A model generated the notes under the pieces. The model had not been told where the DNA came from. It did not search any database and worked only from the letters and a program-made list of their open reading frames with translations. A DNA stretch of 64,000 bases, from assembly GCF_023734095.1 (NCBI RefSeq), contig NZ_AP024620.1, positions 2,724,501 through 2,788,500 on the forward strand, in the 5' to 3' direction. Below, one piece after another: positions 10,317 to 59,577 of the stretch. This DNA comes from Moorella sp. Hama-1 (GTDB lineage Bacteria > Bacillota > DSM-521 > Neomoorellales > Neomoorellaceae). Each line of letters opens with the position of its first letter. The first letter of the stretch is position 1. Made by a program: the position numbers and the translations under genes.

Positions 10317-10343
10317 AAAAGCCGGTCGTATAACCGGCTCTTT
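10317..10343. terminator. Terminator of the Yip1 gene
   Basis: AAAAGCCGGT...ACCGGCTCTTTT forms a GC stem with flanking A and T runs, immediately after the minus-strand stop codon at 10350. Confidence 0.7.
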
Positions 10344-10349
10344 TCGGGT

Positions 10350-16606: not shown

Positions 16607-16668
16607 TATGGATTCCCTCCTATCCCTTCCTTAATTCCGGCTTTAGCCGGGGCTGCCGCCCGGTCTTC

Positions 16669-17328
16669 CTACGCCGACAGGTCAACCCGGCCGTTTTCCT
16701 TCTGGAGCTGCTTGCAGAGTTCGGTGGCCGAGGCGGCATCGGGGGCGTACCCGTCTGCCCCGATCTCGTCCGCAAAACCCAGGGTGATAGGCGCTCCGCC
16801 GACGATCACCTTTACCTTGTCCCTCAGCCCGGCTGCGACCAGGGCATCGATGGTGGACTTCATGTTCATCATGGTGGTGGTCAGCAGGGCAGACATGGCC
16901 ACGATGTCCGGCTGGTACTTCTTCACCGCCTCCACGAATTTACCCGGCTCGATATCCACGCCCAGGTTGTAAACCGTGAAACCGCTGCTCTCCATCATCA
17001 TGCCTACCAGGTTTTTACCGATATCGTGCAGGTCCCCCTTGACGGTTCCCAGCACGATCTTCCCCATGGACGGCATGTCAAAGGCCTGCTGGCTCTCCTT
17101 CACCACCTCCACGCCGGCGTTCATCGCCCTGGCCGACATCAGGACCTCCGGCACGAACATCTCGTTGTTCTTGAACAGCACACCGACCCGATCCATGCCC
17201 GCGATCAGGCCCTTGTTGATCACATCCAGAGGGTCCGCTCCACTGCTCAACAAACTCTTTGTAACTTCCACTACCCGTGCTTCATCACCATCAAATACCG
17301 CCTGTGACAGTTCATCAAAGCTGGCCAT
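16669..17328 (-). CDS. mtaC: Methanol-specific corrinoid protein MtaC
   Basis: 219 residues: a helical cap (about 1-85) and a Rossmann-type B12 domain with the base-off/His-on motif DxHxxG in TVKGDLHDIGKNLVG. The SALLTTTMMNMKSTIDAL and VGGAPITLGFADEIGADGYAPDA segments complete the binding site. It carries the methyl group between MtaB and the pterin or corrinoid methyltransferase. ATG 17328 is chosen because GGGAGGA precedes it; a longer frame starting at 17460 would overlap the upstream gene and add 44 unrelated residues. Confidence 0.95.
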   Translation of the reverse strand: MASFDELSQAVFDGDEARVVEVTKSLLSSGADPLDVINKGLIAGMDRVGVLFKNNEMFVPEVLMSARAMNAGVEVVKESQQAFDMPSMGKIVLGTVKGDLHDIGKNLVGMMMESSGFTVYNLGVDIEPGKFVEAVKKYQPDIVAMSALLTTTMMNMKSTIDALVAAGLRDKVKVIVGGAPITLGFADEIGADGYAPDAASATELCKQLQKENGRVDLSA

Positions 17329-17452
17329 CTCGACAAATCCTCCCTCATTTTTAATGATTTTTGATTGACCCGTAATCCCCGCCGGACACATCCGGCCCCT
17401 ACGGGAAAGAGATGCGGCCGGGTATTGCCGGGATACCGGAGCACGGCTGGTA

Positions 17453-18256
17453 TCAGTCATGCCTGTACAATCCCCTGCGGTGGGCCTTCAGGTAGCCGCT
17501 GCAGAAGGGATCCTTCCCCAGCAGTGCCTTTGAGGCGTGGAAGAAGCCCATCATCTCCCTGTCCAGGGGGTCCAGGATATATGAATCCATTCCGGCGGTC
17601 ATCAACTGCACCATGCAGACCTGGTTGAGAACCCGCCTGTTGGGCAACCCGAAGCTGATGTTGCTGAGACCACAGATGATGTGTACGCCAGGGTAAGTCT
17701 TCCGGATGAAACCCACGGCTTCAATCAGTTCAACCCCCGCCTGGTCGCTGGTGCTGACCGGCTTCACCAGCGGGTCGATGTAGATGTCGTCCCTCTCGAC
17801 ACCGGCTGCTGTCAGGTCTTCCACCAGCTTACCGACGATCTCAATTCTCTTCTCCGCGGTGGACGGTATACCGTCGTTATCCATGCACAGGGCCACCACC
17901 CTGGCGTTGAAGCTCTTCACGATGGGCAAGACCGCCTCGAACCGGTCCGGTTCCGCGGTGATGGAGTTTAACATGGGCCGGCCCCTGGTCGCCAACTTCA
18001 ATCCCATTTCCAGAGCCTGGGGATTGGGGCTGTCAATACACAGGGGAACGTCTACCGCTTCCCTTACGGTATTGACCAGCCAGGCCATGATCTCCGGTTC
18101 ATTGTGAATCAGGGTTCCGCAGTTGACGTCGATGTAATCCGCCCCGGCCTCCGCCTGCTTCACCGCGATGTCGTGGATGTAAGCGGCATCACCCCTTTCA
18201 ATTGCCTCTTTAATCGGTTTGCGACTGGTGTTGATCAATTCTCCCACAATGAGCAT
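17453..18256 (-). CDS. Methyltetrahydrofolate:corrinoid methyltransferase (MtvA/AcsE-like)
   Basis: 267 residues of the pterin-binding TIM-barrel family, which includes AcsE and the second methyltransferase of O-demethylase systems. Visible marks are MLIVGELINTSRKP, the pterin site AGADYIDVNCGT, PLCIDSPNPQALE, NSITAE and HIICGLSNISFGLPNRR. It would pass the methyl group from MtaC to tetrahydrofolate, linking methanol to the Wood-Ljungdahl pathway without an MtaA/coenzyme M step. It is first in the mta unit. A homologue is encoded at 53393-54190. Confidence 0.92.
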   Translation of the reverse strand: MLIVGELINTSRKPIKEAIERGDAAYIHDIAVKQAEAGADYIDVNCGTLIHNEPEIMAWLVNTVREAVDVPLCIDSPNPQALEMGLKLATRGRPMLNSITAEPDRFEAVLPIVKSFNARVVALCMDNDGIPSTAEKRIEIVGKLVEDLTAAGVERDDIYIDPLVKPVSTSDQAGVELIEAVGFIRKTYPGVHIICGLSNISFGLPNRRVLNQVCMVQLMTAGMDSYILDPLDREMMGFFHASKALLGKDPFCSGYLKAHRRGLYRHD

Positions 18257-18417
18257 CGGCTGCTACCTCCCAACCCGGTATGGATTAATCCAGCTTCCTT
18301 TAACGATAGAATTGTGTTAAACTTAAGATCATGAATCAACTCCCCCTATCACATCCCTTTTAACAGTTTCAGATCCATCAGAACCAGTTCCTGTGCCCCC
18401 GCCTTGAATTATACGTT

Positions 18418-18488
18418 ACGACAATATTAAGATCATGTAAAAAAGGCAATAATTTGTGGCTAATTTATAGTGAATTGTCGTGTATAAT
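18418..18488. promoter_or_regulatory. Divergent control region of the mta genes with distant dyad
   Basis: ACGACAAT (18418-18425) and its exact complement ATTGTCGT (18474-18481) lie 48 nt apart, the second touching a TATAAT box at 18483-18488 that serves the plus-strand corrinoid gene. The -35 region is weak, suggesting activation. The segment lies between the divergent transcription units. An operator function is inferred. Confidence 0.45.
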
Positions 18489-18526
18489 TTATTTACGAAG
18501 GAATAAACAGGAAAGCCGGTGATACC

Positions 18527-19201
18527 TTGAGCGACCGTACCCAAATATTTCAGGACATTATTTCCGCCATCCTGAGGGGAGAGGCCAACGGTGTATTGAA
18601 ATCAATTAACTTGGGGCTGCAGATGGGGATGAGTGCTGACGAGATCCTGGAGGAGGCTATGATACCGGCAACCGTCCAGACCCTGGACAAATACCAGGGG
18701 GCGGATTTTTACATCCCTGATGTCATCAATGCTTCCCACGCCATCGAGGCCGGTCTGTTCGCCTTGAAACCCTACATTAAAAAAAGCCTCCAGAAGCGAA
18801 AGAAAATCGTCATCGGCACTGTGGAAGGGGATATTCATGACATCGGAAAAAACCTGGTGGCCCTGTCCCTGGGTTACGCCGGGTTTGAGGTCGTCGACCT
18901 GGGTGTGAATGTCTCGCCGGCGGAATTCGTCAGGTCGGTAGAGCAGCACCGCCCGGAGATCCTGGCAATGTCGGCATTACTGACCACAACCATGGGCGAA
19001 ATGGCAAGGGTAATCAAGGCCCTGGAGAAGCACCACCTGCGCAAAAGCGTCAGGGTGCTGGTGGGTGGAGGGCCTGTGACGAGGGAGTTTGCTGAGTCCA
19101 TCGGGGCGGACGCCTACGGCAGCTCGGCCCGTGAGGCCATCAGTATCGCCCAATCCCTGGTGAGCCGGTGCAGTGAGCGAGAAAGGAATTGTGCCTGTTG
19201 A
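18527..19201 (+). CDS. Second MtaC-like corrinoid protein
   Basis: 224 residues with the same architecture as MtaC: helical cap, then the B12 domain with GTVEGDIHDIGKNLVAL (DxHxxG), LSALLTTTMGEMARVI and VGGGPVTREFAESIGADAYG. The TTG start at 18527 follows a purine-rich site (GAAAGCCGGTGA). It is transcribed away from mtaC, with no methyltransferase directly beside it, so it may serve an unlinked methyltransferase or act as a spare carrier. The C-terminal CSERERNCAC contains three cysteines, not seen in the neighbouring copy. Confidence 0.88.
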   Translation: MSDRTQIFQDIISAILRGEANGVLKSINLGLQMGMSADEILEEAMIPATVQTLDKYQGADFYIPDVINASHAIEAGLFALKPYIKKSLQKRKKIVIGTVEGDIHDIGKNLVALSLGYAGFEVVDLGVNVSPAEFVRSVEQHRPEILAMSALLTTTMGEMARVIKALEKHHLRKSVRVLVGGGPVTREFAESIGADAYGSSAREAISIAQSLVSRCSERERNCAC

Positions 19202-33674: not shown

Positions 33675-33914
33675 GGGGCTGGCGGGTACAGGCGGAAGGC
33701 GACTTGGTTTAAGGCGACAGCAAACTCAGCGAAGCCGTAGGGAGGCGGCGGTGAACGGGATGGGGATCGTAACGTAAGATGAGAAACTAAGAACTTTACT
33801 CCTCGCTGCGATTATTCAAAGGGATAAAGTTAAGCCACCCCGCCGCTTAAGCAACTCAGTGCCAAGTTTGCTAGCCGAGAACCACCGGGGCCTGTAGCCT
33901 GTACCGCCAGCCCC
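33675..33914 (+). ncRNA. Structured RNA-like element, long copy (candidate HEARO/omega-RNA type)
   Basis: A 240-nt intergenic element whose ends pair: GGGGCTGGCGGGTACAGG (33675-33692) with CCTGTACCGCCAGCCCC (33898-33914). AGCAAACT (33719-33726) pairs with AGTTTGCT (33865-33872) and could form a pseudoknot or a long internal helix. The blocks GCGAAGCCG, GGCGGCGGTGAACG and CTAGCCGAGAACCACCGG recur in the 51.2-kb copy, and the first two, slightly altered, in the 47.5-kb copy. The layout recalls HEARO (IscB omega-RNA) elements, but identity needs a covariance search. A leader role for cydD cannot be excluded. Confidence 0.6.
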
Positions 33915-46209: not shown

Positions 46210-46233
46210 AAAAAAACCTGACTGAAAGTCAGG
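46210..46233 (-). terminator. Terminator downstream of the UroD-family gene
   Basis: CCTGACT-GAA-AGTCAGG; on the minus strand it is followed by seven Ts. It ends the 46.4-54.8-kb cluster, about 140 bp after the last stop codon. Confidence 0.75.
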
Positions 46234-46373
46234 CTCGTAATTGCTAGGTAACGACCATATCGCCCACCAGCGATCCAATCTAAGCCAAAGGCCATATCGC
46301 AGGGAACTTAACGAGCCAGACGATGCCAGCTCGTGATCGTGATATAGTTATTTCCGGAATAGATATATCTAGC

Positions 46374-47390
46374 TTACCGGTAGATCCCATATTTATCTAC
46401 GGCCCGGTACAGGGCCAGGACATTTTCCGGGGGCAGGGAGGCGTTCAAAATACCGCAGGCTGTCGAGAAGATATAGCCCCCGCCGGGGGCCGCAACGTCC
46501 AGCAGGCTGCGGGTGGCGGCAGTTATAGTATCCGGGTTGCCGGTAACCAGGAGATCCAGATCGAAGTTGCCCATCAGGCACCACCTCTCCCCGTATTCCC
46601 TTTTAACGGCCCCTATATCCATGCCGGCGGCCGGCTCCAGGCCCTGGAGGCCGTCCAGGGGCAAACCGGCCAGGTCGGGCAGAACGGCCTGGAGATTGCC
46701 ATCGGAGTGGTACAGGACCGGCAGGCCCATTTCTTTGATCCCCTCTACCTGACACCGCAAAAGGGGTAAAAAGAGCTCCCGCCAGAGGTCCGGCCGGATG
46801 TAGGTCCCCCGGCCGTAGGCAATATCGTCGCCGATGATAATACCGTGGGCCCCCGCCTGCCGGCAGAGGCGCGCCAGTTTTATATTGAAGTCGACGACGG
46901 CCGCCGCCAGTTTCCCGATGGCTTCCTCCCCGGCCGCCGCGGCCAGGAGAAATTCGGTAAAGTCCAGGAGTCGCCCCGTCCCCTGGAAGGGGCCGTCGAT
47001 AAAGGCCAGGACAAAGAAGTCCGTTTCCTCCCGCCAGCGACGGATAGCCTGCAGGTTGAAGGAGACGGGGTCCGGCAGGGTATAATCTGCGGCGACCCGG
47101 ATGGCCGGGATGGCTGGCGCCAGGGGCACCTTCAAGTTCCCCCGGTTAGCATAACGGCAACCCCAGGCATCCCGGTAGCTGCCGGACCCCGCTTCCGCCA
47201 CCGGCGCCGCCGGGGTAATAGCCAGGAGGTCCATCCCCAGGAGTTCCCGGGCCGCCACCTCAGACTGGAAGTCAGGGGCCCGGCCCAGCAGAACGGCCAC
47301 CAGGCCTGGTTCCAGTTCGAACTCCCCCCGGGGTACCCGGTCGGGCCTACCGCCGGCCAGGGCCACCTGCACCCTTTCGATATGAGTCAC
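46374..47390 (-). CDS. UroD-superfamily methyltransferase, candidate methyltransferase I
   Basis: About 338 residues of the uroporphyrinogen-decarboxylase/MtaA superfamily. Marks: HIERVQVALAGGRPDRVPRG at the start, IIIGDDIAYGRGTYIRPDLWR in the middle, LYHSDGNLQAVLPDLA and FSTACGILNASLPPENVLAL late. MtaA-type enzymes bind zinc by HxC and a later Cys; here the first motif reads HSD, so a different ligand set is used. Placed last in a corrinoid cluster, it may load methyl groups from an O-methyl substrate. GTG 47390 matches the family start better than ATG 47408. Confidence 0.78.
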   Translation of the reverse strand: MTHIERVQVALAGGRPDRVPRGEFELEPGLVAVLLGRAPDFQSEVAARELLGMDLLAITPAAPVAEAGSGSYRDAWGCRYANRGNLKVPLAPAIPAIRVAADYTLPDPVSFNLQAIRRWREETDFFVLAFIDGPFQGTGRLLDFTEFLLAAAAGEEAIGKLAAAVVDFNIKLARLCRQAGAHGIIIGDDIAYGRGTYIRPDLWRELFLPLLRCQVEGIKEMGLPVLYHSDGNLQAVLPDLAGLPLDGLQGLEPAAGMDIGAVKREYGERWCLMGNFDLDLLVTGNPDTITAATRSLLDVAAPGGGYIFSTACGILNASLPPENVLALYRAVDKYGIYR

Positions 47391-47470
47391 GTTCCTTTTT
47401 TCCTCCATTCAACTGTAAGACCATGTTCATTATTGACTACTGATGAAGATAGAATGTAGGCTCTATTAGA

Positions 47471-47575
47471 GGGCTGCTGGGTACAGACGAAAGGTGACTC
47501 GGTTCGAGACGTTAGCAAACTCAGCGAAGCCGAAAGTTTCGCGGCGGTGAACGTGGGAAACGAAAGGCAGCCAGG
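47471..47575 (+). ncRNA. Structured RNA-like element, degraded short copy
   Basis: Shares with the 33.7-kb copy the opening GGGCTGCTGGGTACAG, GGTGACTCGGTTCGAGACG and GTTAGCAAACTCAGCGAAGC, and GGCGGTGAACG. The 3' half is missing; GCAGCC at 47567-47572 can pair with the opening GGCTGC. It lies between the UroD and activator genes. Confidence 0.5.
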
Positions 47576-47627
47576 TTTTAATCTGAAACCGGCGCAGCCA
47601 GTTTCAACAGGCCTCTCACCTCTCCGT

Positions 47628-49463
47628 TCATGGTAGCAAAAGCGAATTTACGTATACTTCCTGGAAGGAAGGCCGGGTCATCAGCTCAATATAGCCCACC
47701 TGCCGGGCAATATGCTCGCACCGGCGGCGTTCCGTCATAGAGATGAGGGCCAGGCGCGCCCCGGTGCCGGCGGCATTGCCCAGCTGGTGGAAGGCCGTCA
47801 GGGGCAGGTTGGGGAACATGCCGATGGTAACGGCGCTCTCCAGTTTCAGGTGGGTACCAAAGGCCCCGGCGACCACGACCTCTTTCAGGTCCGCCAGGTT
47901 CAGCCCGGCCGCCTCTAGGAGCAGCAGGGTACCGCTGGCAATGGCGGCCTTGGCCAGCTGGATCTCGCTGACGTCCTTCTGGGTGACCACCAGGTCGCTG
48001 TCTATACCGGCCTCTTCCGCCGGCACCAGGAGGAACTCCGGCGGACCCCCTTCAGCCGGCCGCCTTACCCGGGGGTGTTTTAGATCCATCCGGCCGCTTT
48101 TGTTGATGATACCGGTGCGGTACAGCTCGGCCACGGCGTCCAGGATGCCGGAACCGCAGATGCCTAAAGGCGGCGCCCCACCGATGCTCTCCCAGAAGAC
48201 CTCCCGGCCGTCGTCACTCAGGCGAACGGCGGATATGGCGCCGGTGATAGCCCGCATACCCTGGGCGATATGGGCGCCTTCGAAGGCCGGCCCCGAGGCG
48301 CAGGAACAGGAGAGCATCTTGCCGCCGTAGCTCAGGACAATCTCCGTATTGGTGCCGATATCCAGGCCCAGGGTGACCTTGCGGGCCTCATCGAGGCGGC
48401 TGCCCAGGATCATGGCCACATGGTCGCCACCGACAAAACCGGCGATTACCGGCTGCAGGTAAACATAGGCCCCCGGGCTAAAATTCAAGCCCAGGCTCCG
48501 GGCCTTTACCTCCACCGGCGTAGTCAAAGCCGGCACGTAGGGCGCCCGGGCCAGCTGGGCCACCGGCAGGTGCAGTAACAGGTGGTGCATGGCCGTATTG
48601 CCGACAATTACGGCTTCCTCAATATCCGTCGGGGCCACACCGGCCTTTGCCGCCAGGGTGGCGGCCAGGCGGTTCAAACCTTCAATCTCGACTTCCTGGA
48701 TACGCCGGTACTCCTCTTCGCCCTCCAGGGCATAGCCCAGGCGGGCCATGACGTCTTCCCCGTAAGCTATCTGGGGGTTCATAATACCATCGGCCGCCAG
48801 GGTCGCACCTGTCTCCAGGTTGATGAGAAAACCGGCTACCTTGGTAGTGCCCAGGTCGACGGCCAGGCCCACCGGTGGTGCCGGCCGGCCGGCATAAACA
48901 TTGATCACCTCGGACCCGCGTACCGTGACCACACCCTGGCCCCCCGCCGCCAGGGGTTCCCCCTCCCGGGCCAGGCCAAAGTCCACCACAGCCCGGTGCA
49001 GGCCATAGGTGCTCTCCAACTCCCCGGCCACCTGTTGCCAGATAGGGTGGGGATTTTCAATAGTAGTCTTATTCAAAGATATGTTATATCTTTTTACCGG
49101 GGGCTCGGGGACAACCTCCACCTCCAGCCCCTCGACCTGAAGTTTCTGAACTCCGAGCATGGATTCCGGTGGGATTTCCACCTTCAAGGGAGCGGTGACT
49201 ACAGCCTGGCAGGCCAGGCGATAACCCTGTTCCAGCTGAGCCGGGGTAAGGAAACGCCGCTCTGCCGGCGTTATCTCTCCGGCCTGCCCGGAGGCTACCC
49301 GGACCCGGCAGCGGCCGCAGAGGCCGCGGCCACCGCAGGGAGCAGTCAGACCGCCGGACCCCAGGGACAATCCCAGTTGCTGGGCGGCAGCCAGAATCGT
49401 CTGGCCGGTCGCCACCTCAGCCCGCCGGCCCACCGGCTGGAAATCAACTAACACTTCTGCCAT
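47628..49463 (-). CDS. Corrinoid protein reductive activator (RACo/RamA type, ASKHA domain)
   Basis: 611 residues. An N-terminal plant-type [2Fe-2S] domain binds iron through Cys43, Cys49, Cys52 and Cys85 (APCGGRGLCGRCRVRV, then YRLACQA). A linker and a large ASKHA ATPase-like domain follow: VDLGTTKVAGFL, VIVGNTAMHHLLL, GLDIGTNTEIVL, CASGPAFEGAHI and VVAGAFGTHL. Such proteins spend ATP to reduce the inactive Co(II) corrinoid to Co(I). ATG 49463 has GGGGGTG upstream and overlaps the regulator gene by 20 bp. Confidence 0.93.
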   Translation of the reverse strand: MAEVLVDFQPVGRRAEVATGQTILAAAQQLGLSLGSGGLTAPCGGRGLCGRCRVRVASGQAGEITPAERRFLTPAQLEQGYRLACQAVVTAPLKVEIPPESMLGVQKLQVEGLEVEVVPEPPVKRYNISLNKTTIENPHPIWQQVAGELESTYGLHRAVVDFGLAREGEPLAAGGQGVVTVRGSEVINVYAGRPAPPVGLAVDLGTTKVAGFLINLETGATLAADGIMNPQIAYGEDVMARLGYALEGEEEYRRIQEVEIEGLNRLAATLAAKAGVAPTDIEEAVIVGNTAMHHLLLHLPVAQLARAPYVPALTTPVEVKARSLGLNFSPGAYVYLQPVIAGFVGGDHVAMILGSRLDEARKVTLGLDIGTNTEIVLSYGGKMLSCSCASGPAFEGAHIAQGMRAITGAISAVRLSDDGREVFWESIGGAPPLGICGSGILDAVAELYRTGIINKSGRMDLKHPRVRRPAEGGPPEFLLVPAEEAGIDSDLVVTQKDVSEIQLAKAAIASGTLLLLEAAGLNLADLKEVVVAGAFGTHLKLESAVTIGMFPNLPLTAFHQLGNAAGTGARLALISMTERRRCEHIARQVGYIELMTRPSFQEVYVNSLLLP

Positions 49464-51099
49464 AGTTGGCACCCCCAATTTTACGGAAGACACTTGGTGT
49501 GTAACCTTCCTGCTTTTTAAAGACCTGGCCAAAGTAGCGGGCGTCGTGGTAACCCACCCGGGCGGCGATCTCCGCTACCGGCAAATTGGTGTTTAATAAC
49601 AACTCTTTAGCCGCCTTGAGGCGTACCCTGGTGAGATAATCAATGAAGGTTAACCCCTTGAACTGCTTAAAAAGGCGGCTAAAATAACAAGGGCTCAAGT
49701 AGACCTGCTGGGCTACCTCCTCCAGGGGCAGATCCTGGCTGAAATTGGCCTCAATGTACTTACCGGCCCGGTCAATGAGGGAGGAGTTACGCTGCTCCCT
49801 GGTTTCCGCCACCTGGCCCACCAGGGCCATCAGGCGTTCCAGGATGCGTTCCCGCATATCGGCCAGGTTATCCAGGGTGAGAAACTCGTCACTGCTGGCC
49901 AGGGCAAGATTAGAAACAGCGTCGGCGTCGGCACCACCCTCCAGGGCGGCCCGGGCCGTCAGGGCGTTCAGTTCCAGGAGTTTCATCTTCAATATCGCCG
50001 GCCGCTTTTCCTGCTCCAGGAAGAGCTGCATCAAAATATTATTGACCCGCTCGTAGGCAGCCTGGCTGTCGCCCATCCGGATAGCCTGGGTCAACTCCTG
50101 CTCTTCCGGACCCTGAAGTAACTGCTCAACATTGGACCGGGCGATAACGTCATCAGCATGGATAACCTGGTCACCGCCATAGAGCAACCGGAATTCCGCC
50201 GCTGCCGCCGCCTCAGCGTAAGATCTGGCCAATTCGGTGACCTTCTCCACGGGCCGGCCAATACCTACCGTTACCGTGACCCTGGTATCCCGGCGAACCT
50301 GGCGGCAGATACTATCCCCCAGTTCGATAACGGCCCGGCGGCTGGCTTCACCGCCGGGCAGGTGGTCCAGAGGTAGAAGAATGACGAATTCATCCCTGGT
50401 AACGGGGGCGAGCAAAGCACCCGGCCAGGATGTCGTCGCCCCTTCCAGAACCTCTTTAACCTGCTGCTTTAAAATCTGGCGTTCGACCTCCGTCCCCTCC
50501 CGGGCCAGGGTAACGAAGTTATCGATATCCATCAACAGGGCTATCCGGGGCAGGGCGGTGATTCCCAGAAAGCGCGCCCGGCTGACAGCTTCATCTTCTG
50601 AAATGTTACCGTTGATCAGGTCCATAATGAAGCCCAGGCGAATAAAGGGTTTAGTTTCCTCCAGGGCGGCCCGCAGCCGGGTCGTCTCCTGCAGGCGCCG
50701 GCGGGCGGCGGCAATGCCGGCGGCCAGCTCGTCGAGGAGGGGCAGCATCTCTTCCCCGGCTACTGGCTTTAATAAATACTTGGAGGCGCCCAGGGAGACT
50801 GCTTCCCGGGCATAATCAAATTCACCGTAGGCGGTGACAAAGATTAGCCTGGCCTCGGGGAGAAGAGCCCGGATCTCCTGCCCGGCGGCCAGCCCGTCCA
50901 TGACAGGCATTTTGATGTCCAGGAAGATGATATCCGGCTGGAGCCTGGAGGCCTGGTTTACCGCTTCGACCCCGTTACCTGCTTCGCCTACTACTTGATA
51001 GCCGGGGCGTTCCCGGGCCAGTAAAAAACGGATGGCCTGGCGCTCCAGGGGTTCATCGTCGACAAGCAGGATCTTGACATCCTTGACATCCGTAGCCAA
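49444..51099 (-). CDS. YesN-type response regulator (receiver, degenerate GGDEF-like, AraC HTH)
   Basis: 551 residues. The receiver (8-125) has the acidic pair D14/D15, phosphoacceptor D61 in IIFLDIKMPVMDG and Lys in YLLKPVAG. A long middle part (140-430) resembles the degenerate GGDEF-like domain common in YesN regulators (TRDEFVILLPLD). Two AraC helix-turn-helices finish it (LPLEEVAQQVYLSPCYFSRLF; AEIAARVGYHDARYFGQVFK). It is the natural partner of the kinase encoded just upstream. TTG start, with GGAGG 12 nt before it. Confidence 0.9.
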   Translation of the reverse strand: MATDVKDVKILLVDDEPLERQAIRFLLARERPGYQVVGEAGNGVEAVNQASRLQPDIIFLDIKMPVMDGLAAGQEIRALLPEARLIFVTAYGEFDYAREAVSLGASKYLLKPVAGEEMLPLLDELAAGIAAARRRLQETTRLRAALEETKPFIRLGFIMDLINGNISEDEAVSRARFLGITALPRIALLMDIDNFVTLAREGTEVERQILKQQVKEVLEGATTSWPGALLAPVTRDEFVILLPLDHLPGGEASRRAVIELGDSICRQVRRDTRVTVTVGIGRPVEKVTELARSYAEAAAAAEFRLLYGGDQVIHADDVIARSNVEQLLQGPEEQELTQAIRMGDSQAAYERVNNILMQLFLEQEKRPAILKMKLLELNALTARAALEGGADADAVSNLALASSDEFLTLDNLADMRERILERLMALVGQVAETREQRNSSLIDRAGKYIEANFSQDLPLEEVAQQVYLSPCYFSRLFKQFKGLTFIDYLTRVRLKAAKELLLNTNLPVAEIAARVGYHDARYFGQVFKKQEGYTPSVFRKIGGANYGRSVS

Positions 51100-51189
51100 A
51101 GCTGAGCTCTGCCTCCTTAAGCCAATAACGTGGAGCCCTCATGGGGGCGAACGCCCTCACCAGCAAACTATGAAAATACGGACTGAGCA

Positions 51190-51337
51190 GGGGCTGGAGG
51201 TTACAAGCGGAGGGCGACTTGGTCCGAGGCGCTAGATACTTGCGCGAAGCCGCGGGGAGGCGGCGGTGAACGGGATGGGGATCAGCGCCAAGTTTGCTAG
51301 CCGAGAACCACCGGAGCCCGGAGCTGTACCTCCAGCC
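51190..51337 (+). ncRNA. Structured RNA-like element, short copy
   Basis: 148 nt. The ends pair: GGCTGGAGGTTACA (from 51192) with TGTACCTCCAGCC (51325-51337), keeping the pairing of the 33.7-kb copy despite base changes. GCGAAGCCG, GGGAGGCGGCGGTGAACG and AAGTTTGCTAGCCGAGAACC are conserved. About 90 nt found in the long copy are absent. It lies between the kinase and regulator genes, on the opposite strand to them. Confidence 0.6.
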
Positions 51338-51431
51338 AACAAGAAGCTGGATTTTAGCTTAACCAACAGTAACCATTTTGGGTAGAACCCTATTTGCGAA
51401 GAAGCGGAGAGAACCCCTCCTGCTCCCCCCT

Positions 51432-53255
51432 CTACTCCTCAGTATAAGGGAAAGTCAGCTGAACGCAAGTACCTTTTCCTGGGGTACTGGCTACGTCCAG
51501 GGCGCAGTTGCTGCCGAACTGGTGCTGCAGGCGCCGGTAGACGTTGACCACCCCCAGGCCGCTCACCTGCCCCTTACCGCTCCGCCGGACCTCCAGGTCA
51601 AAAATGGCCTTTTTGACCTCGGGCGCGATGCCCACGCCGTCGTCTTTAATCTCCACCTGGACTTGATCTCCCACCAGGCGCACCGCAACGGTTATTTCGC
51701 CGCCCTCTTCTTTGGGCTCCAGGCCGTGGATAACGGCATTCTCCACCAGGGGCTGCAGGATCATGCAGGGCACCCGGGCCTTCAGGGCGGCTTCTTCGAC
51801 CACTACCCGGCCCCGGATGCGGTCCGAAAACCGTGTTTGCTGGATATAGAGGTAATCACGCACGGCAGTGATCTCTTCCGCCAGGGCAACTGACTCCTTG
51901 ACCTGGTAGAGGCTGTAGCGCATAAGGCGGGCCAGGGCGCGGACCATTTTTTCCGTATCCGCCGCCTCTTCTAGGAGGGCCAGGCGGGCGATGGTGTTTA
52001 AAGAATTAAAAAGAAAGTGGGGGTTGACCTGGGACTGGAGGGCCTTGAGTTCGGCTTCCTTCAGGGCCTGTTCCAGCTGGTGCTGCCGCTTGAGGAAGTG
52101 GATAAAACTGCTCCGCTGGTCCTCCAGTTCTTTATTGGCCAGCAGCACCGTATTGAGCTGCATAATCTGGCCGGATACGAAGGAAAGCAAGCCGCAGACG
52201 GCTTCCAGGTCCGCCAGGGAGAGGACCGGGACGGCTGCCTGCAAATCGGCCGGGGCGGGATCGCCCTCCAGCAGGCAGTGGCCGCAGAGGACGGCCCCCA
52301 CTGTCCCGTCTTCATTGGCCAGGGGGTAAGAGATTTCCAAGAGCCCGGCGTGGCAGCGGTAGATAAAGGCTTCTTTAAAATTACTCTGCAGGGTGGTGAC
52401 GTCCAGGGGCCGGGCCGGGTTTTCCCGCAGCAGGTGGCAGTGACGGGAACACTCCAGGAACCCCCCCAGGGGCGTCAGGGGGTTGCCGGCGGCATCCACC
52501 ATCACCAGGTGCAGGCCCGTCATCCGGGTAAAGGCCCGCTGCAGGTCCTCCAGGGAACCCTCACCAAAAAATAGATCCAGGGTAGCTGGCGCCAGGACGG
52601 CCTGGCGCTTGCGGTCGGCGCCGATCAGGTTTTTAATCAAGGGGATGGCCGCTGTGGCATCGGCGGCGTAGCCGTCAGCCCCCATGCGGGCGGCAATCTG
52701 GGCATTCAAGGGTGTGCCGCCCACCACAACCTTGATCTTGTTACGCCACCCGGCCTCCTGTAGAGCGGCAATGGTATCCTCCATGGCGTTCCGGGTGGAA
52801 GAGAGGAGGGCCGACAGGCAAAGGACGTCAGGGTGGTGTTTAATAACGGCTTCGACAAAAGTGCTGGGGGCTACATTAACGCCCAGATCAATGACTTCGA
52901 AGCCCGAGGCTTCCAGCATGATGGCCAGGAGATTCTTACCAATATCATGGATATCCCCCTGAACGGTCCCGACAATAGCCCGCCCCACCGGCGGCACCTT
53001 TCCGGCCAGCATCAACGGTTTGAGTTCTTTTAAACCGGTATGCATGGCCCTGGCGGTGATAATCAGGTCGGTAACGTAAATCTCATTTCGCTCGAACCTT
53101 TCCCCCACCACATCCATGGCTGCCACAAAGCCTTCGGTGATAATCCGGGTCGGTTCGCTGCCGGCGGCCAGGGCTTTTTTGATCTCTTCCCGCACCTGGG
53201 CGGCATTACCATTGATTACAGCCTGGATCAGGGTTTCCAGGGAGAAGGATGCCAT
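51432..53255 (-). CDS. Corrinoid-binding/PocR sensor histidine kinase
   Basis: 607 residues. Residues 1-213 are a complete MtaC-like corrinoid protein: helical cap, then DxHxxG in TVQGDIHDIGKN (D101, H103, G106) and VGGTPLNAQIAARMGADGYA. Residues 224-345 are a PocR ligand domain with cysteines at 269, 273, 301, 324 and 327. A linker helix leads to a LytS/YesM-type kinase with His413 in QSQVNPHFLFNSLNTI, an N-box QPLVENAVIHGL (N506) and DDGVGI. No membrane segment is present. It probably senses corrinoid or methylation state and phosphorylates the adjacent regulator. Confidence 0.9.
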   Translation of the reverse strand: MASFSLETLIQAVINGNAAQVREEIKKALAAGSEPTRIITEGFVAAMDVVGERFERNEIYVTDLIITARAMHTGLKELKPLMLAGKVPPVGRAIVGTVQGDIHDIGKNLLAIMLEASGFEVIDLGVNVAPSTFVEAVIKHHPDVLCLSALLSSTRNAMEDTIAALQEAGWRNKIKVVVGGTPLNAQIAARMGADGYAADATAAIPLIKNLIGADRKRQAVLAPATLDLFFGEGSLEDLQRAFTRMTGLHLVMVDAAGNPLTPLGGFLECSRHCHLLRENPARPLDVTTLQSNFKEAFIYRCHAGLLEISYPLANEDGTVGAVLCGHCLLEGDPAPADLQAAVPVLSLADLEAVCGLLSFVSGQIMQLNTVLLANKELEDQRSSFIHFLKRQHQLEQALKEAELKALQSQVNPHFLFNSLNTIARLALLEEAADTEKMVRALARLMRYSLYQVKESVALAEEITAVRDYLYIQQTRFSDRIRGRVVVEEAALKARVPCMILQPLVENAVIHGLEPKEEGGEITVAVRLVGDQVQVEIKDDGVGIAPEVKKAIFDLEVRRSGKGQVSGLGVVNVYRRLQHQFGSNCALDVASTPGKGTCVQLTFPYTEE

Positions 53256-53392
53256 AATATTCCTCCTAAGGAAAAAGGCCGCAGCAGGGAACTAACCCTC
53301 CTGAGGCCGCAAGGAATTCCCACTTAATCATAAATTTGACGTCAGACACAAATTCCCTTCCCCGGCAGGCCGCCTCATTAAAGAGTTGGAGT

Positions 53393-54190
53393 CTAAGCTT
53401 TAATCTTTCCGGCCCGGGCCGCCGCGATGTACTCCAGGCAATATTCATCCTGGCCGTACAGGGCGGTGGCGGCCCGCAACAATCCCATTAAAGGCATATC
53501 CAGGGGATCCATAATAAAGGCGTCCATGCCCCGGGTGAGGCACATGACCATAAAGGCCCGATTTAACAGCCGCCGCTCCGGCAGGCCGTAGGAAACATTG
53601 GAGAGACCACAGATGGCATGAACCTTGGGATATTTTTGCCGCAAGGCGGCCACCGACTCCAGGGCTTCGACGCCGTACTGGCTGTTAACCCCCAGGGGTT
53701 TGATCAAGGGGTCCAGGTAGATATGGTCTTCCGGTATGCCGGCCTCTACCAGGCCCGGTACCAGCCTTTCTGCTACCCGCAGGCGATCTTCCACCGTTTC
53801 CGGCATACCGCCGTCATCCATGCACAGGGCGATGACTTTGGCCTTATATTTCTGCAAAAGGGGCAAAACCTCAGCCCAGCGTTGCTTCTCGGCAGTGATA
53901 GAATTGACCAGAGCCTGACCCTTATGGGCCGCCAGGCCGGCAGCCAGGGCTTCGGCGCTGGGGCTGTCGATACAAAGGGGAACATCAACGACTTCCTGGA
54001 CGCTGTTTACCAGCCAGGTCATGACCTTTTCTTCTTCACCGATGCTTGTCCCGCAGTTGACATCAATAATATCGGCTCCGGCCTCGGCCTGTTTACGGGC
54101 CAGGTCCTGGATATAGGCCTGGTTGCGGTCGGCGATGGCCTGGGCGATAGCCTTACGGCTGGAGTTGATTAACTCTCCGACGACGAGCAT
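53393..54190 (-). CDS. Methyltetrahydrofolate:corrinoid methyltransferase (MtvA-like)
   Basis: 265 residues, the same family as the gene at 17453-18256: MLVVGELINSSRKA, the pterin motif AGADIIDVNCGT, PLCIDSPSAEALA, NSITAEKQRW, HAICGLSNVSYGLPERR. It would move the methyl group from the adjacent corrinoid protein to tetrahydrofolate, completing an O-demethylase. It lies 18 bp after the corrinoid gene. In Moorella the vanillate O-demethylase is MtvB/MtvC/MtvA; the substrate here cannot be determined. Confidence 0.92.
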   Translation of the reverse strand: MLVVGELINSSRKAIAQAIADRNQAYIQDLARKQAEAGADIIDVNCGTSIGEEEKVMTWLVNSVQEVVDVPLCIDSPSAEALAAGLAAHKGQALVNSITAEKQRWAEVLPLLQKYKAKVIALCMDDGGMPETVEDRLRVAERLVPGLVEAGIPEDHIYLDPLIKPLGVNSQYGVEALESVAALRQKYPKVHAICGLSNVSYGLPERRLLNRAFMVMCLTRGMDAFIMDPLDMPLMGLLRAATALYGQDEYCLEYIAAARAGKIKA

Positions 54191-54208
54191 TCCTTGGCCT
54201 CCTTATAG

Positions 54209-54838
54209 TTACGAAACGAGAAGTTGTCCCGCCAGATCAACGGCCGAAGCGGCATCAGGGGCATAACCATCGGCGCCGATCTCATCGGCGAACTTCTGGG
54301 TTACCGGGGCGCCACCGATCATAATCTTAATCTTATCCCTGTAGGCAGCCAGACCTTCGACGGTCTTCTTCATCTGCATCATGGTGGAGGTCAACAGGGC
54401 GGAAATACCCACCAGCTGGGGTTTCTGCTCTTCCACAGCCTGGATAAATTTCTCTACCGGCACGTCGATCCCCAGGTCAACAACCTTGTAGCCGGCGCCT
54501 TCCATCATCATGATGACCAGGTTCTTGCCGATATCATGCAGGTCGCCTTTGACTGTACCGATAACGAAGGTACCTTTCTCTTTCAGCTCGCCGCCGGCCA
54601 GCAGGGGTTTAACCACATCCATGCCGGCGTGCATGGCCCGGGCCGCTACCAGGACCTCTGGCACATAGACTTCGTTATTCTTAAATTTAACGCCAATAAT
54701 GTTCATGGCCGCAATCAGGCCATCATTGATGATGGTGTTGGGTTCGATACCCTCATCCACAGCCTTCTGGGCCAGTTCCCTCACCTTGTTGGCATTACCG
54801 ACCATCAACGCTTCTTTGATTTCCTCCAGGACTGCCAT
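54209..54838 (-). CDS. O-demethylase corrinoid protein (MtvC-like)
   Basis: 209 residues: cap domain and B12 domain with DxHxxG in TVKGDLHDIGKNLVI, SALLTSTMMQMKKTVEGL and GGAPVTQKFADEIGADGYAPDA. It is the methyl carrier of this system and is first in the minus-strand cluster, with AAGGAGG before the ATG. An AT-rich stretch upstream (54850-54905) probably holds the promoter, but I see no consensus. Its fold is shared by the N-terminal domain of the kinase encoded two genes later. Confidence 0.94.
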   Translation of the reverse strand: MAVLEEIKEALMVGNANKVRELAQKAVDEGIEPNTIINDGLIAAMNIIGVKFKNNEVYVPEVLVAARAMHAGMDVVKPLLAGGELKEKGTFVIGTVKGDLHDIGKNLVIMMMEGAGYKVVDLGIDVPVEKFIQAVEEQKPQLVGISALLTSTMMQMKKTVEGLAAYRDKIKIMIGGAPVTQKFADEIGADGYAPDAASAVDLAGQLLVS

Positions 54839-55006
54839 TTGCCGTTCCTCCTTAAAATATAAGTTGGTTCATTTTTAAGTTTATTTTAAGATAAGTGGAA
54901 CGGCAAGGCGAAATTATTGCTAAAGGTTGATTTTCTTGCCCTTGGCGGAAATTGGCTGGCTCTCTTCACCGCCGGGATAGGGCTCGTCCTGGACCCCGGC
55001 CGCCCT

Positions 55007-55773
55007 TTACGGCTCGTTGGCTTTCTCCGCCGCCTGCAGTATTTGTAAGGATGGCCGCCAACCGGGAGGTAAATCAAGTCTGTCCTGGTCGTGGTTTGGG
55101 GAAACGTGATGTCCTTTTACCAGGAAGATCGTTGCCGGGGGAAAGCCCAGCACCGCCAAAATCCCGGCCCCGATAGCCGCATGGTCATCACCTTCCCCAC
55201 TACTAAAGGCCAGGCCGATATCGTGGAGTAAGGCCGCTGCATAAAGACTGGTTGTATCTACGGGCGTTGGCAGCCCGGCAACCATCTCCTGACAGGTAGC
55301 GACTACGCTTTGAGAATGGCCGCTGCGCTGGAGCCGTTTTTCCCCCAGGTCGTTGAGATGCCGGGCCACCCGCAGCCGCCTGGCATCATAATGCTGCTGG
55401 CGCCGGGAGAAATTAGCGGCTAATAATACCAGCTCCTGCAGATCCAGGGGTTTATTCAAGAAGGCATCTACCCCGGCCTGAAAGGCACGCATCCGGTTTT
55501 GTTTATCCGGGAAGGCACTGGTGACAATTATCGGCGGCGCTAATTGGCCGTCCTGCCGGGTTAGATTCTCAGCCACGACGAAACCGTTTTCCCCGGAAGG
55601 CGCAGGTCCAGAATAATTAAATCGAAGCTTTCCCTTTTAGCCCGTTCGATAGCGTCGACGCCGTTATTTTCATGGGTCACTACCGCCGCCCCTTTAGCGG
55701 TCAAGAGGTCCTTGAGCAACCGGGCGCTATTAACGTCATCTTCTACTAATAATACCCGCGCAGCCTGCATCAT
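55007..55773 (-). pseudogene. Receiver-HD domain response regulator, frameshifted
   Basis: Two adjoining frames make one protein. The first (55773-55561) is a receiver start ([30 protein letters not shown] with the phospho-Asp). The second (55576-55007) continues the receiver (PPIIVTSAFPDKQNRMRAFQ, FLNKPLDLQELV) and adds an HD domain (AAALLHDIGLAFSSGEGDDHAAIGAGIL, KGHHVSPNHDQDRLD). The join needs one more G in the four-G run at 55591-55594 (read on the minus strand), so a single-base deletion or sequencing error is likely. Confidence 0.8.
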
Positions 55774-55817
55774 AAACTTTATTCTCCTTTGCGGCCCTCG
55801 TTTACGGCCGGTAGGGT

Positions 55818-55910
55818 TAATCCCGGCGCAGAAATTTATGGATCAGTTCCGGCAGGGCCTGCGTGTCAATGGGTTTGACGATAAACCCGTCGCAGCCGGG
55901 GAGCATTCGG
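55818..55910 (-). pseudogene. C-terminal receiver-domain fragment
   Basis: The minus strand encodes [20 protein letters not shown] followed by LIHKFLRRD and a stop, the last helix and Lys-Pro motif of a receiver domain. The preceding part is replaced by the start of a radical-SAM gene on the other strand. Confidence 0.6.
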
Positions 55911-56472
55911 TCCACGACGGCCCCGGCTGCCGGACGTTAATTTTTATGAGCGGCTGCCCCTTGCACTGCGAATGGTGCGCCAACCCCGAAGGGATGGCCT
56001 TCCGGCAACGGGGGTGAGGCGGGTTCCTTCCGCCTTCCGGCCACTCACTGGTTGCGCCTTTCTGGAAGTTATGCGCTATGTGGATTGGGCCTTTATTGAT
56101 ATCAAACACATGGACCTGGAAAAGCACCGGGAAAAAACTGGCGTGACCAATGAACTAACCTTGAATAATATAGCCGCTCTGGTGGCTTCGAGCTGGCCGG
56201 GCCGGTTGATTATCCGCATGCCAATCATTGAAAACTTCAATGATATGGATGCCAACATTATTGCCACCGCGGCTTTCCTCAACCAAACCGGCCTGCGCGA
56301 GATCAACATCCTGCCATTTCACCGCCTGGGCGACTCCAAGTGGGCCCAGCTGGGTTTAAAATATCCCTACGGTGAGTATCCGGGTACCTCAGGCGAAAAA
56401 TTGGAACACATAAAAAGCTTGTTTCAGGAACGTGGTATAGCCTGTTACGCTGGTTCCGATACGCCGTTTTAG
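55880..56472 (+). pseudogene. Glycyl-radical enzyme activating protein, internally deleted
   Basis: The N-terminal part has [20 protein letters not shown] with the radical-SAM motif CPLHCEWC. The frame ends soon after (GMAFRQRG). The C-terminal part is in a different frame: YVDWAFIDIKHMDLEKHREK, NIAALVASSWPGRLIIRMPI, INILPFHRLGDSKWAQLGL. The middle third, including the extra ferredoxin insert of this family, is missing. No glycyl-radical enzyme gene is nearby. Confidence 0.75.
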
Positions 56473-56749: not shown

Positions 56750-57778
56750 ATGAAAAAAAGATTGAGACAAAGATTTGCGGCAGGATGGCTCCTGGTTATC
56801 CTCCTGACCCTGTTACTGGCTGGCTGCGGTTCCGGGGGAGGCAAACAGCAAGCCGGCAGTGGCGGTGCAACAACGGGCCAGGCTAAAAATGTCAAACTGG
56901 GTATCATCCAGATCGTCGAGCACCCGGCCCTGGATGCGGCCCGGAAGGGTTTCCTGGCCGCGCTGAAGTCCGGCGGTTATGAAGAAGGCAAAAACTTGCA
57001 GGTGGATTTTCAAAACGCCCAAAACGACCAGTCCACCCTGCAGAACATCGCCCGCAAATTCGCCCAGGATAAAAAGGATCTCATCCTGGCTGTGGCCACC
57101 CCCTCGGCTATGGCTATGGCCAACGAAACCCAGGATATTCCCATCCTGATTACCGCCGTCACCGATCCGGTCACCGCTAAAATGGTTAAGAGCATGGACA
57201 AACCCGGCACTAACGTCACCGGTACCACGGACATGAACCCTATCAAGGAACAGCTGCAGCTCCTTAAACAGCTGGTCCCGACGGCTAAAAATATCGGCGT
57301 TATCTATAACTCCAGCGAGGTCAATTCCCAGGTCCAGGTAAAGGTAGTTAAACAGGAAGCGCCCGGTCTGGGCCTGAATGTGGTCGAGGCCCCGGTCACG
57401 GCCAGCAGTGAAGTGGTCCAGGCAGCCCAGTCCCTGGTGGGGCGGGTAGAGGCCGTCTATGTCCCCACCGACAACACCATAGTCTCCTCCATTTCCGGGG
57501 TGCTGCAGGTAACGGAACAGCACAAAATACCGGTAATTGCCGGGGAGAGCGGTACCATTGAGGCCGGCGTCCTGGGCACTATTGGCATTGATTACTACAA
57601 ACTCGGGGAGCAGACCGGACAGATGGCCCTCCGGGTGCTCAAAGGCGAAAAACCCCAAGATATGCCCATAGAAAAACAAAAGGATTTGAGTATCGTTTTA
57701 AACGCTAAAACAGCGGCGGCCCTGGGAATAAACATCCCCGACGAGCTCCAAAAGAAGGCCACCAAGATCGTTAAGTAG
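56750..57778 (+). CDS. ABC substrate-binding lipoprotein (ABC_sub_bind family)
   Basis: 342 residues. A lipoprotein signal with lipobox LLAGCGSGG is followed by a two-lobed binding protein of the PF04392 type: VKLGIIQIVEHPALDAARKG, ILAVATPSAMAMANETQDIP, GTTDMNPIKEQLQLLKQLVP and IPVIAGESGTIEAGVL. Such proteins work with the permease and ATPase that follow (TrpXYZ-like arrangement), and some take up tryptophan or other small ligands. The ligand here is unknown. AAGGAGG lies upstream of ATG 56750. Confidence 0.9.
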   Translation: MKKRLRQRFAAGWLLVILLTLLLAGCGSGGGKQQAGSGGATTGQAKNVKLGIIQIVEHPALDAARKGFLAALKSGGYEEGKNLQVDFQNAQNDQSTLQNIARKFAQDKKDLILAVATPSAMAMANETQDIPILITAVTDPVTAKMVKSMDKPGTNVTGTTDMNPIKEQLQLLKQLVPTAKNIGVIYNSSEVNSQVQVKVVKQEAPGLGLNVVEAPVTASSEVVQAAQSLVGRVEAVYVPTDNTIVSSISGVLQVTEQHKIPVIAGESGTIEAGVLGTIGIDYYKLGEQTGQMALRVLKGEKPQDMPIEKQKDLSIVLNAKTAAALGINIPDELQKKATKIVK

Positions 57779-57788
57779 GTGAAATCCT

Positions 57789-58709
57789 ATGTCCTTAAGC
57801 ATCTGGTTGGGGGCCCTGGAGCAGGGCTTATTATGGGGGGCCATGGTCCTGGGGGTTTATATTACCTTCAGAATCCTGGATTACCCGGATCTAACTGTTG
57901 ACGGCGCCTTCACCCTGGGGGCGGCCATAGCCGCCAGGGTGATTATGTCCGGCTATAATCCCTGGTTGGCCCTGCTGGTAGCCGTCCTTGGCGGCGCTCT
58001 GGCCGGTTGGATTACCGGCATCCTGCATACCCGCCTGGGGGTTGCCCCCCTGCTCTCCGGTATCCTGACTATGATTGCCCTTTATTCGATTAATCTACGG
58101 ATCATGGGACAGGCCAACCTGTCCCTCCTTCGTGTCCCGACCATCTTTACCGGCGTTAAAAAAATGCCCGGCATCGACCCCTTTGGCCCCGCTTTACTGG
58201 GCCTGTTGCTGGTGGTGGTAGTCGTTGTCCTGCTCTACCTTTTCTTCCAGACGGAACTGGGGATGGCCATCCGGGCTACCGGCGATAATGACCAGATGAT
58301 CCGCAGCCTGGGGGTAAATACCGGCACCATGAAACTGGTAGGCCTGGCCTTTGCCAATGCCCTGGTGGCCCTTTCCGGCGGGCTGGTCGCCCAGTACCAG
58401 GGTTTCGCCGATATCGGCATGGGCATTGGCATGATCGTGGCCGGCCTGGCCGCTGTAATTATCGGTGAGGCCCTGGTAGGCAGTGCCACCCTGTCTCGTG
58501 CCCTGCTGGCTGCCATCGTCGGTTCCATTATCTACCGGTTTGTCATCAGCCTGGTCCTGCAGTTGGGCCTGCCGGCCACAGACCTCAAACTCCTGACCTC
58601 GTTAATTGTCGTGGTAGCCATGGCCTTGCCCCTGGTACGCCGGCGCCTGGGATGGCGCGCCCTACGTTTAAGGAGTGAGCAAAGTGCTGCAACTGGCCAG
58701 CGTAACTAA
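57789..58709 (+). CDS. ABC transporter permease (branched-chain/TrpY-like)
   Basis: 306 residues with eight to nine membrane helices of the BPD_transp_2 family. Marks: RILDYPDLTVDGAFTLGAA, TRLGVAPLLSGILTMIALYS, TELGMAIRATGDNDQMIRSLG and NALVALSGGLVAQYQGFADI. It forms the membrane channel of the importer. It lies 10 bp after the binding-protein gene; the ATPase start overlaps its 3' end. Confidence 0.92.
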   Translation: MSLSIWLGALEQGLLWGAMVLGVYITFRILDYPDLTVDGAFTLGAAIAARVIMSGYNPWLALLVAVLGGALAGWITGILHTRLGVAPLLSGILTMIALYSINLRIMGQANLSLLRVPTIFTGVKKMPGIDPFGPALLGLLLVVVVVVLLYLFFQTELGMAIRATGDNDQMIRSLGVNTGTMKLVGLAFANALVALSGGLVAQYQGFADIGMGIGMIVAGLAAVIIGEALVGSATLSRALLAAIVGSIIYRFVISLVLQLGLPATDLKLLTSLIVVVAMALPLVRRRLGWRALRLRSEQSAATGQRN

Positions 58710-59577
58710 AACCTTTAATCCCGGCGGGGTCAATGAAAAATTGGCTTTGCGGGAAATCTCCTTACAGGTTAAGCCGGGCGAAGTTGTCACCATCATCGGC
58801 AGCAACGGCGCCGGGAAATCGACCCTGTTAAACGTAGTGGCCGGGGTTTATGAAATCGAGGCTGGTCAGGTTTTTTTGGACGGTCAAGATATCACCAGCT
58901 GGCCCGAGCATAGCCGCGCCTCCTTAATTGGCCGGGTTTTTCAGGACCCGCTCAAGGGCACGGCTGCCACCATGACCATTGAAGAAAACCTGGCCCTGGC
59001 TTTACGCCGCGGTCACCCCCGCCGTTTACGCCGGGGTATTACGGCGGCCGAGCGGCAGACATTTAAAGAGCGCCTGGCCCTGCTGGGACTGGGCCTGGAG
59101 GAACGCCTGAAGACCCGGGTGGGCCTGCTGTCCGGCGGCCAGCGCCAGGCCCTGACGGTCCTCATGGCTACCATTGCCACACCCAAACTGCTCCTGCTGG
59201 ATGAGCACACCGCCGCCCTGGATCCGCGGACAGCCGGGATAGTGTTGGAGCTAACCGCCAAAATAGTCGCCCAGAACCGGCTGACCACCCTGATGGTGAC
59301 CCATAACCTGGAACAGGCCCTGCGTACCGGCGACCGGACTATTATGCTGCACGAGGGCCGGATCATTCTGGACCTGTGCGGCCCGGAACGGGCCCGGGCC
59401 ACCGTAGCCGATCTGCTGAAAATGTTTGAAAGGGCCAGCGGCAACGCCTTGACTGATGACCGGGTGCTGCTGGGGGAGAGTTACAGTAGCTCCGTTACCG
59501 GCGGTGGTTGTGCCCCCAGGCCAGCGGCCAGCGCTACCATCACCCCCCTCTCTTCCCGGCGGCGGATGCGGGGTTGA
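58684..59577 (+). CDS. ABC transporter ATP-binding protein (TrpZ-like)
   Basis: About 297 residues: Walker A GSNGAGKST, Q-loop VFQDPLKGTAATMT, signature LSGGQRQALT, Walker B LLLLDEHTAALDP and H-loop VTHN. The EHTAALDP Walker B variant is typical of this importer group. GTG 58684 is favoured because AAGGAG (58670-58675) lies 8 nt upstream; GTG 58675 is part of that site. The last 45 residues are poorly conserved. A terminator follows. Confidence 0.92.
   Translation: MLQLASVTKTFNPGGVNEKLALREISLQVKPGEVVTIIGSNGAGKSTLLNVVAGVYEIEAGQVFLDGQDITSWPEHSRASLIGRVFQDPLKGTAATMTIEENLALALRRGHPRRLRRGITAAERQTFKERLALLGLGLEERLKTRVGLLSGGQRQALTVLMATIATPKLLLLDEHTAALDPRTAGIVLELTAKIVAQNRLTTLMVTHNLEQALRTGDRTIMLHEGRIILDLCGPERARATVADLLKMFERASGNALTDDRVLLGESYSSSVTGGGCAPRPAASATITPLSSRRRMRG

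Follow-up and report, generated by a model that had tools for sequence, protein, structure and literature searches.

How does an acetogen choose which of its methyl-removing systems to make? The choice among many methyltransferase systems in acetogens has been described as largely unexplored (PMC13222342), and a run of six minus-strand genes in Moorella sp. Hama-1 raises the question for one such system, whose sensor, regulator and DNA site can be named here. We analyzed a window of 64,000 nucleotides (the whole stretch of DNA studied), which comes from a genome of 3.32 Mb on a single contig whose named relatives are Moorella. The most likely answer is that the six genes form a self-regulated three-component methyltransferase system, in which a sensor kinase reads the supply of methyl donor by means of its own corrinoid. 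Taken as a whole, this explanation combines one promoter, a UroD-superfamily protein as MT I, a corrinoid-reading kinase and an operator-bound activator, and we consider it slightly more probable than its negation. All of the component families are already known. In this arrangement they would make up a conserved methyl-removal operon in heat-loving, acetate-making Moorella and relatives.

The six-gene locus and its conservation

Read along the minus strand, the locus begins with a corrinoid protein of 209 aa (CoP, 54209..54838; PF02607 and PF02310), which carries DxHxxG according to both Pfam and alignment. It is followed by a 265-aa methyl-THF:corrinoid methyltransferase (MTII, 53393..54190; PF00809), whose score of 367.7 bits against NF005719 lies above the cut-off of 259 and assigns it to the methyl-THF:corrinoid type. 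Next come a sensor kinase of 607 aa (51432..53255; Pfam B12-binding_2, B12-binding, PocR, His_kinase and HATPase), a YesN-type response regulator in which Pfam finds a receiver, a GGDEF-like domain and an AraC HTH (49444..51099), and a RACo/AcsV-like reductive activator of corrinoid proteins (RACE, 47628..49532; PF14574, PF17651 and PF00111). The activator is AcsV-like and not AcsV, as it reaches 409 bits where the NCBIfam cut-off for AcsV is 800. The last gene encodes a UroD-superfamily protein that is probably the MT I (46374..47408; PF01208). Pfam and NCBIfam bear out the preliminary description, which had placed all six minus-strand genes at these coordinates and in these families. Judging from orthologue lengths and Shine-Dalgarno positions, the annotated starts of the UroD and RACE genes may be slightly early, and the UroD protein likely starts at 47390.

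Because orthologues in other Moorella genomes keep the same order, we regard the six ORFs as real genes. Moorella orthologues of the UroD protein are 68-84% identical and those of the kinase 81-90% identical. The order CoP-MTII-kinase-regulator-RACE-UroD is kept in G001-G005, in G008-G010 and in the related genera G016 and G017, and the order CoP-MTII-kinase-regulator recurs in a distant family (G129). At the orthologous loci the block is followed by a LolA-like gene and then mostly by hpt and guaA. Every complete Moorella genome examined has the six-gene block, with the exception of M. caeni. In that species (DSM 21394, G006) the part from kinase to UroD is intact and CoP and most of MTII are lost, the best CoP match being 55% as against 94% in G005. 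The locus is split across two contigs in G015 and partial in G014, and in the incomplete genome G007 the C-terminal half of the kinase alone is kept.

An ABC transporter at 56750-59577 was considered as a member of the cluster and rejected, since it does not adjoin the cluster in orthologous loci. In the window, a receiver-HD gene (55007-55783) looks frameshifted, an open frame at 55007-55576 covering the second half of its receiver, and a radical-SAM activase-like gene (55712-56472) is divided between two frames; locus L067 of G007 has longer homologues of both. A second methyl-transfer locus lies at 15176-19201. It comprises an MtaB-like gene (15176-16606), a corrinoid protein (16669-17460) and a methyl-THF methyltransferase-like gene (17453-18256), all on the minus strand, together with a further corrinoid protein on the plus strand (18527-19201), and by resemblance it is probably a methanol system.

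The six genes had been called close or overlapping, a statement that fails at the junctions between kinase and regulator (332 nt) and between activator and UroD (219 nt). Both wide gaps contain copies of a dispersed repeat, one at 51125..51300 and a degenerate one, approximately 70% identical, at 47471..47553 (both minus strand). In G005 the corresponding gaps measure 42 nt and 67 nt. Because they contain repeat copies here and are narrow in G005, we interpret the wide gaps as late insertions rather than operon borders. The repeat itself is GC-rich and about 95-155 bp long, and the genome carries at least 41 copies of it, mostly 78-90% alike; two copies are within the operon and a further copy in the window is at 33675-33768. 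A terminator had been proposed downstream of the UroD gene, and the terminator scan does find a terminator-like hairpin 3' of it (46214..46236, minus strand). However, the scan as a whole is no richer than shuffled sequence, with 15 terminator-like sites against a shuffled mean of 16.3.

The operator and the corrinoid-carrying kinase

The cluster had been described as self-contained and as having built-in regulation. Both claims hold, and an operator makes the regulation more specific. This operator, CAAGAAAATCAACCTTTAGCAATAATTTCGCCTTG, is a 35-bp sequence on the minus strand (54904..54938), roughly 66 nt 5' of the CoP gene, with two CAA-type half-sites spaced about 19-21 bp. It forms a conserved island: across 12 loci, from Moorella to G015-G017, the 35-bp block upstream of CoP is conserved and its flanks are not. 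Allowing up to 3 mismatches, there is one operator per genome in the genus, upstream of CoP only.

Beyond the genus, a matrix trained on sites of the Moorella family alone finds the operator before CoP in G129 at 37.1 bits, where the highest score among 40 shuffles is 4.2. The same matrix gives 24.0 bits in G053, the highest of 40 shuffles being 10.1. The fusion kinase is present in 13 of 398 Bacillota genomes, namely those of the Moorella family, G053, G129 and G086, and its domain make-up was confirmed in the last three. When the same 398 genomes were scanned with a broadened pattern that drew on every known site, those of G129 and G053 included, exact operator matches were found in 11, all of them among the 13 with the fusion kinase. 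In the remaining 385, no match comes closer than two mismatches, and the two found at that distance equal the two matches of the reversed control pattern. The kinase genomes without an operator are G006, which has lost CoP and the promoter, and G086; neither has CoP beside the kinase. Since most of the 13 genomes are close relatives, these are not 13 independent events, and the independent support comes from G129 and G053, both of one family. Operator conservation and co-occurrence with the kinase make the predicted regulatory wiring well supported.

In locus L190 of G053 (5483-8199), a second operator with one mismatch lies about 60 nt in front of another CoP-MTII-UroD operon, just upstream of which FAD-dependent-oxidoreductase-like and ASKHA-like genes can be recognized by eye.

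About 15 nt past the operator there is a TAAAAT or TAGAAT element, which in the window is TAAAAT (54883..54888, minus strand, 15 nt past the operator) and, from its sequence and conservation, a probable -10 element. There is no good -35 element, and the operator overlaps the -35 position. The element together with the lack of a good -35 suggests an activator-dependent promoter. Control by a riboswitch was rejected, as no Rfam match was found within 44-58 kb at E values up to 0.1.

The kinase consists of a corrinoid-carrier domain (residues 1-212), PocR (234-336), a long helix and a YesM-type core (401-605). Residues 1-212 correspond to a full carrier, with helical cap, B12 (Rossmann) domain and the cobalt-ligand histidine, and are best matched by models of MtgC/MtbC-type carriers. 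DxHxxG, SALL and GG do not vary in a joint alignment of four carriers with nine kinases drawn from three families. In a wider kinase set that includes distant orthologues, the same holds for His413 and the ATP-site residues. Asp61 and Lys111 of the regulator receiver are invariant as well. With PF06580 and HATPase in the kinase, a receiver and AraC HTH in the regulator, and intact phospho-residues, the pair is of the YesM/YesN type. The structure model of the kinase (pLDDT 72, pTM 0.36) is too weak a guide to how its domains are arranged or to whether UroD could reach its corrinoid.

That the carrier domain is complete suggests that the kinase reads the methylation of its own corrinoid. It is possible, at somewhat less than even probability, that the signal is instead cobalamin supply or the Co(I)/Co(II) redox state, with the corrinoid domain as a gate for B12 status and PocR detecting the substrate. 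A PocR ligand alone may also be the signal. An intact corrinoid site is consistent with this role, and PocR is a predicted small-molecule sensor for which dichloromethane binding has been proposed in MecA (PMC9768040). The kinase of G086 also lies apart from methyl-transfer genes. However, a full methyl carrier closest to the MtgC/MtbC type exceeds what a B12 sensor would need, and in the genomes examined the operator stands before CoP and not before B12 synthesis genes. Both points argue against this alternative.

In locus L186 of G086 (7502-11027), the corrinoid-PocR kinase and YesN regulator are found beside rpoN/whiA/cofD/rapZ and gapA-pgk-tpiA. Because this pair adjoins gapA-pgk-tpiA in a locus with no methyltransferase genes, the kinase and methyl transfer do not go together in every genome. 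This locus has no operator either, and the alignment of the regulator HTH gave no explanation for that absence.

The UroD-superfamily protein

The favored candidate for MT I is the UroD protein. It has His234-Ser-Asp236 where MtaA has His-x-Cys, as the preliminary description had read. The distinct metal site proposed on that basis is real as an H-S-D motif, but it is not peculiar to this protein, being found clade-wide across several phyla; an H-S-D site unique to this protein was rejected for the same reason. The clade is widespread, with members in Bacillota, Neomarinimicrobiota, Chloroflexota and others in our tree, and its signature is E..DD..HxDG. Of 96 UroD sequences, 84 to 90 retain E29, D194, D195, H234 and D236, and position 318 is freely variable. 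At the second Cys position of MtaA, orthologues in Moorella have Cys, Ser or Gly. The protein does not have the His-x-Cys...Cys zinc ligands of MtaA/CmuA and scores 74 bits against TIGR01463 (MtaA/CmuA), below the curated cut-off of 235.4. An MtaA-like or mlp-like S/Se-methyltransferase was rejected because the ligands are absent.

The AlphaFold2 model of the protein (pLDDT 97) has the UroD/MtaA fold and matches MtaA (4ay7/4ay8) at a TM of 0.76-0.79. HemE matches equally well, and with fold-search Z scores of 31.9 for HemE and 30.6 for MtaA, decarboxylase and methyltransferase are not separable by fold. Structure prediction had been suggested as a means of locating the metal ligands, and the model places the DD pair, H234, D236 and N281 at the C-terminal ends of barrel strands. 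By its secondary structure, the E, DD, H and D of the signature would lie at these strand ends, where MtaA holds zinc.

The label "O-demethylase-type" was not established by our analysis, as the MtvB-type enzyme of Moorella belongs to a clade that does not include this protein. In the tree, L078, presumably MtvB1-like from its gene position, and its relatives split from the UroD protein at 100/100 support, and L078 has the motif FFAEGNW where the UroD protein has LYHSDGNL. An O-demethylase of the Mtv/Odm type for methoxylated aromatics would share its list of components with the known three-component O-demethylases, and Moorella uses vanillate and syringate (PMC11328732). We nevertheless consider it improbable, since the protein is outside the MtvB-type clade and without its motif, and Moorella already has Mtv systems (PMC13391211, PMC11328732). 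Membership in the E..DD..HxDG clade, which is neither MtaA-like nor MtvB-like, makes the term O-demethylase a guess. Carboxylates replacing Cys have been argued to favor oxygen-bound methyl groups (PMC10418091), and the UroD-type MT I CdmB works without metal (PMC13222342). Because carboxylate ligands would fit an oxygen-bound methyl, O-demethylation, though not in the Mtv sense, is the best guess.

Gene neighbors were rejected as a guide to the substrate, as they have no common thread across relatives. Desulfosporosinus relatives adjoin menaquinone-biosynthesis, AMP-ligase or sulfite-reductase-type genes, and the one in S. ovata adjoins an ABC transporter. In Sporomusa loci L166 and L165, a UroD of the same clade comes directly after ABC transporter genes and is followed by a SPOCS-domain gene (Pfam, L166). 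In locus L185 of G053 (1701-8986), two UroDs with E/DD/HSDG, a TRAP transporter and a D-2-hydroxyacid dehydrogenase are found near a kinase of the same type; these neighbors hint at O-methylated hydroxy acids as donors.

Could the UroD protein be a partner of RACE, for example in clearing or loading corrinoid, with the cluster working for MT I enzymes encoded at other sites in the genome? A clade UroD directly follows RACE in 20 of the 93 UroDs of the tree set, on several branches, and within a subclade of 58 rows (98/98 support) many members do so. A length of only approximately 293-305 aa is seen in several syntenic orthologues, and other UroD-type MT I candidates are nearby in L120, L146, L152 and L158. 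In the mec cassette, MecI, a URO-D protein of 288 aa, comes after the reactivation genes mecGH, and its role has been called unexplained (PMC9768040, PMC10344839). However, no further UroD-type candidate was found close by in L132, L148, L150 and L156, Neomarinimicrobiota members of the clade adjoin CoP with no RACE in view, and the G053 UroDs, with the same signature, sit with CoP and a TRAP transporter. The active-site residues are also conserved as in an enzyme. We consider an accessory role unlikely and retain the UroD protein as the MT I candidate.

Proposed mechanism and known systems

We propose that one activator-dependent promoter would drive expression of CoP, MTII, kinase, regulator, RACE and UroD. 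As MT I, the UroD protein would bind the donor, probably by its oxygen at a His/Asp/Glu metal site, and transfer its methyl group to the Co(I) of CoP. MTII would pass it from CoP to tetrahydrofolate, feeding the Wood-Ljungdahl pathway, and RACE would reduce the CoP corrinoid again whenever it had lapsed into the Co(II) state. The corrinoid of the kinase would be methylated by UroD and donor, or back from methyl-CoP, and this methylation together with a PocR ligand would set kinase activity. Once phosphorylated, the regulator would bind the 35-bp operator and activate the operon, its own gene included. The complete set of component families (CoP, MTII, RACE, UroD, kinase and regulator) speaks for this scheme; operon transcription, activation rather than repression, the route of the methyl group from donor to tetrahydrofolate, the role of UroD as MT I and methylation as the signal are parts of it that we infer.

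We take G005 to be M. thermoacetica DSM 521. In that strain mtvA3 (Mothe_c21690) and mtvC5 (Mothe_c21700) were placed outside the complete systems by a 2026 study, and their transcripts are up on methanol (PMC13391211). Counting from mtaA4 (c21560), the MTII of the cluster would be c21690, its CoP c21700 and its UroD approximately c21650. If this mapping is right, mtvA3 and mtvC5 are not solitary, and the system is at least indirectly induced by methanol. The number of complete systems in M. thermoacetica would then rise to four, the added one having a candidate MT I, an activator and a switch of its own.

The methyl group might also flow in reverse, from methyl-THF through MTII, CoP and UroD to an acceptor, in a route of synthesis or detoxification. 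Methyl direction is not readable from sequence, and the solved methyltransferase closest in fold, MtaA, takes its methyl group from CoP and delivers it to an acceptor. We regard reverse flow as very unlikely, however, because acetogen systems for donor catabolism typically have a RACE of their own and are expressed inducibly, under the control of a sensor. The rise of mtvA3 and mtvC5 on methanol points the same way (PMC13391211).

If the proposed donor-consuming mechanism is true, a methyl-carrying corrinoid domain serves as a signal input, and a B12 carrier of its own in the sensor would let the cell sense a donor via the very chemistry that consumes it. More tentatively, UroD may methylate both the kinase corrinoid and CoP, so that the donor would be measured by reaction and not by binding, and kinase, YesN regulator and operator may be a module carried between different UroD-type operons. 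In the limited open-access literature that we searched, we found no description of a corrinoid-carrier kinase with a defined operator before methyltransferase operons.

The kinase has a cobalamin-binding sensor input and a lower-ligand histidine in common with CarH photoreceptors, whereas its output is a histidine kinase. Residues of the two were matched by motif alignment to the CarH spacing as we assume it to be. On this matching, CarH W131, E141 and H142 (PMC11796333) correspond to F54, L64 and I65, and H103, the equivalent of CarH H177 (PMC11796333), is the only CarH residue present in the kinase. An AdoCbl photoreceptor of the CarH type was rejected because equivalents of W131, E141 and H142 are absent.

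Type 1 mlp clusters combine UroD-family proteins with CoP and RACE, as here (Kountz and Balskus, PMC10418091). Their Mlp2 and Mlp3 have His-Cys-Cys zinc sites and no H4folate methyltransferase accompanies them, whereas the present locus has one UroD with His-Asp and has MTII, which places it outside that type. The mec cassette (MecA-J, dichloromethane) has in common with the locus a PocR-containing kinase, response regulator, CoP, UroD proteins, MTII and RACE. However, MecA has 430 aa and is described with PocR only (PMC9768040), in contrast to the 607-aa carrier-bearing kinase here, and mec has three URO-D proteins (MecE, MecC and MecI) and a transporter where our locus has one UroD, so that by description the two are set apart.

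The acetogen three-component systems (MtaABC, MtvABC, Odm/Vdm and CdmBCA) share CoP, MTII and corrinoid activator with the locus, and in Mtv, Odm, Vdm and Cdm the MT I belongs to the UroD superfamily, as does the candidate here. The locus differs from them in the clade and metal-site motif of its UroD, and in carrying within the operon its own corrinoid-kinase two-component system and a dedicated operator.
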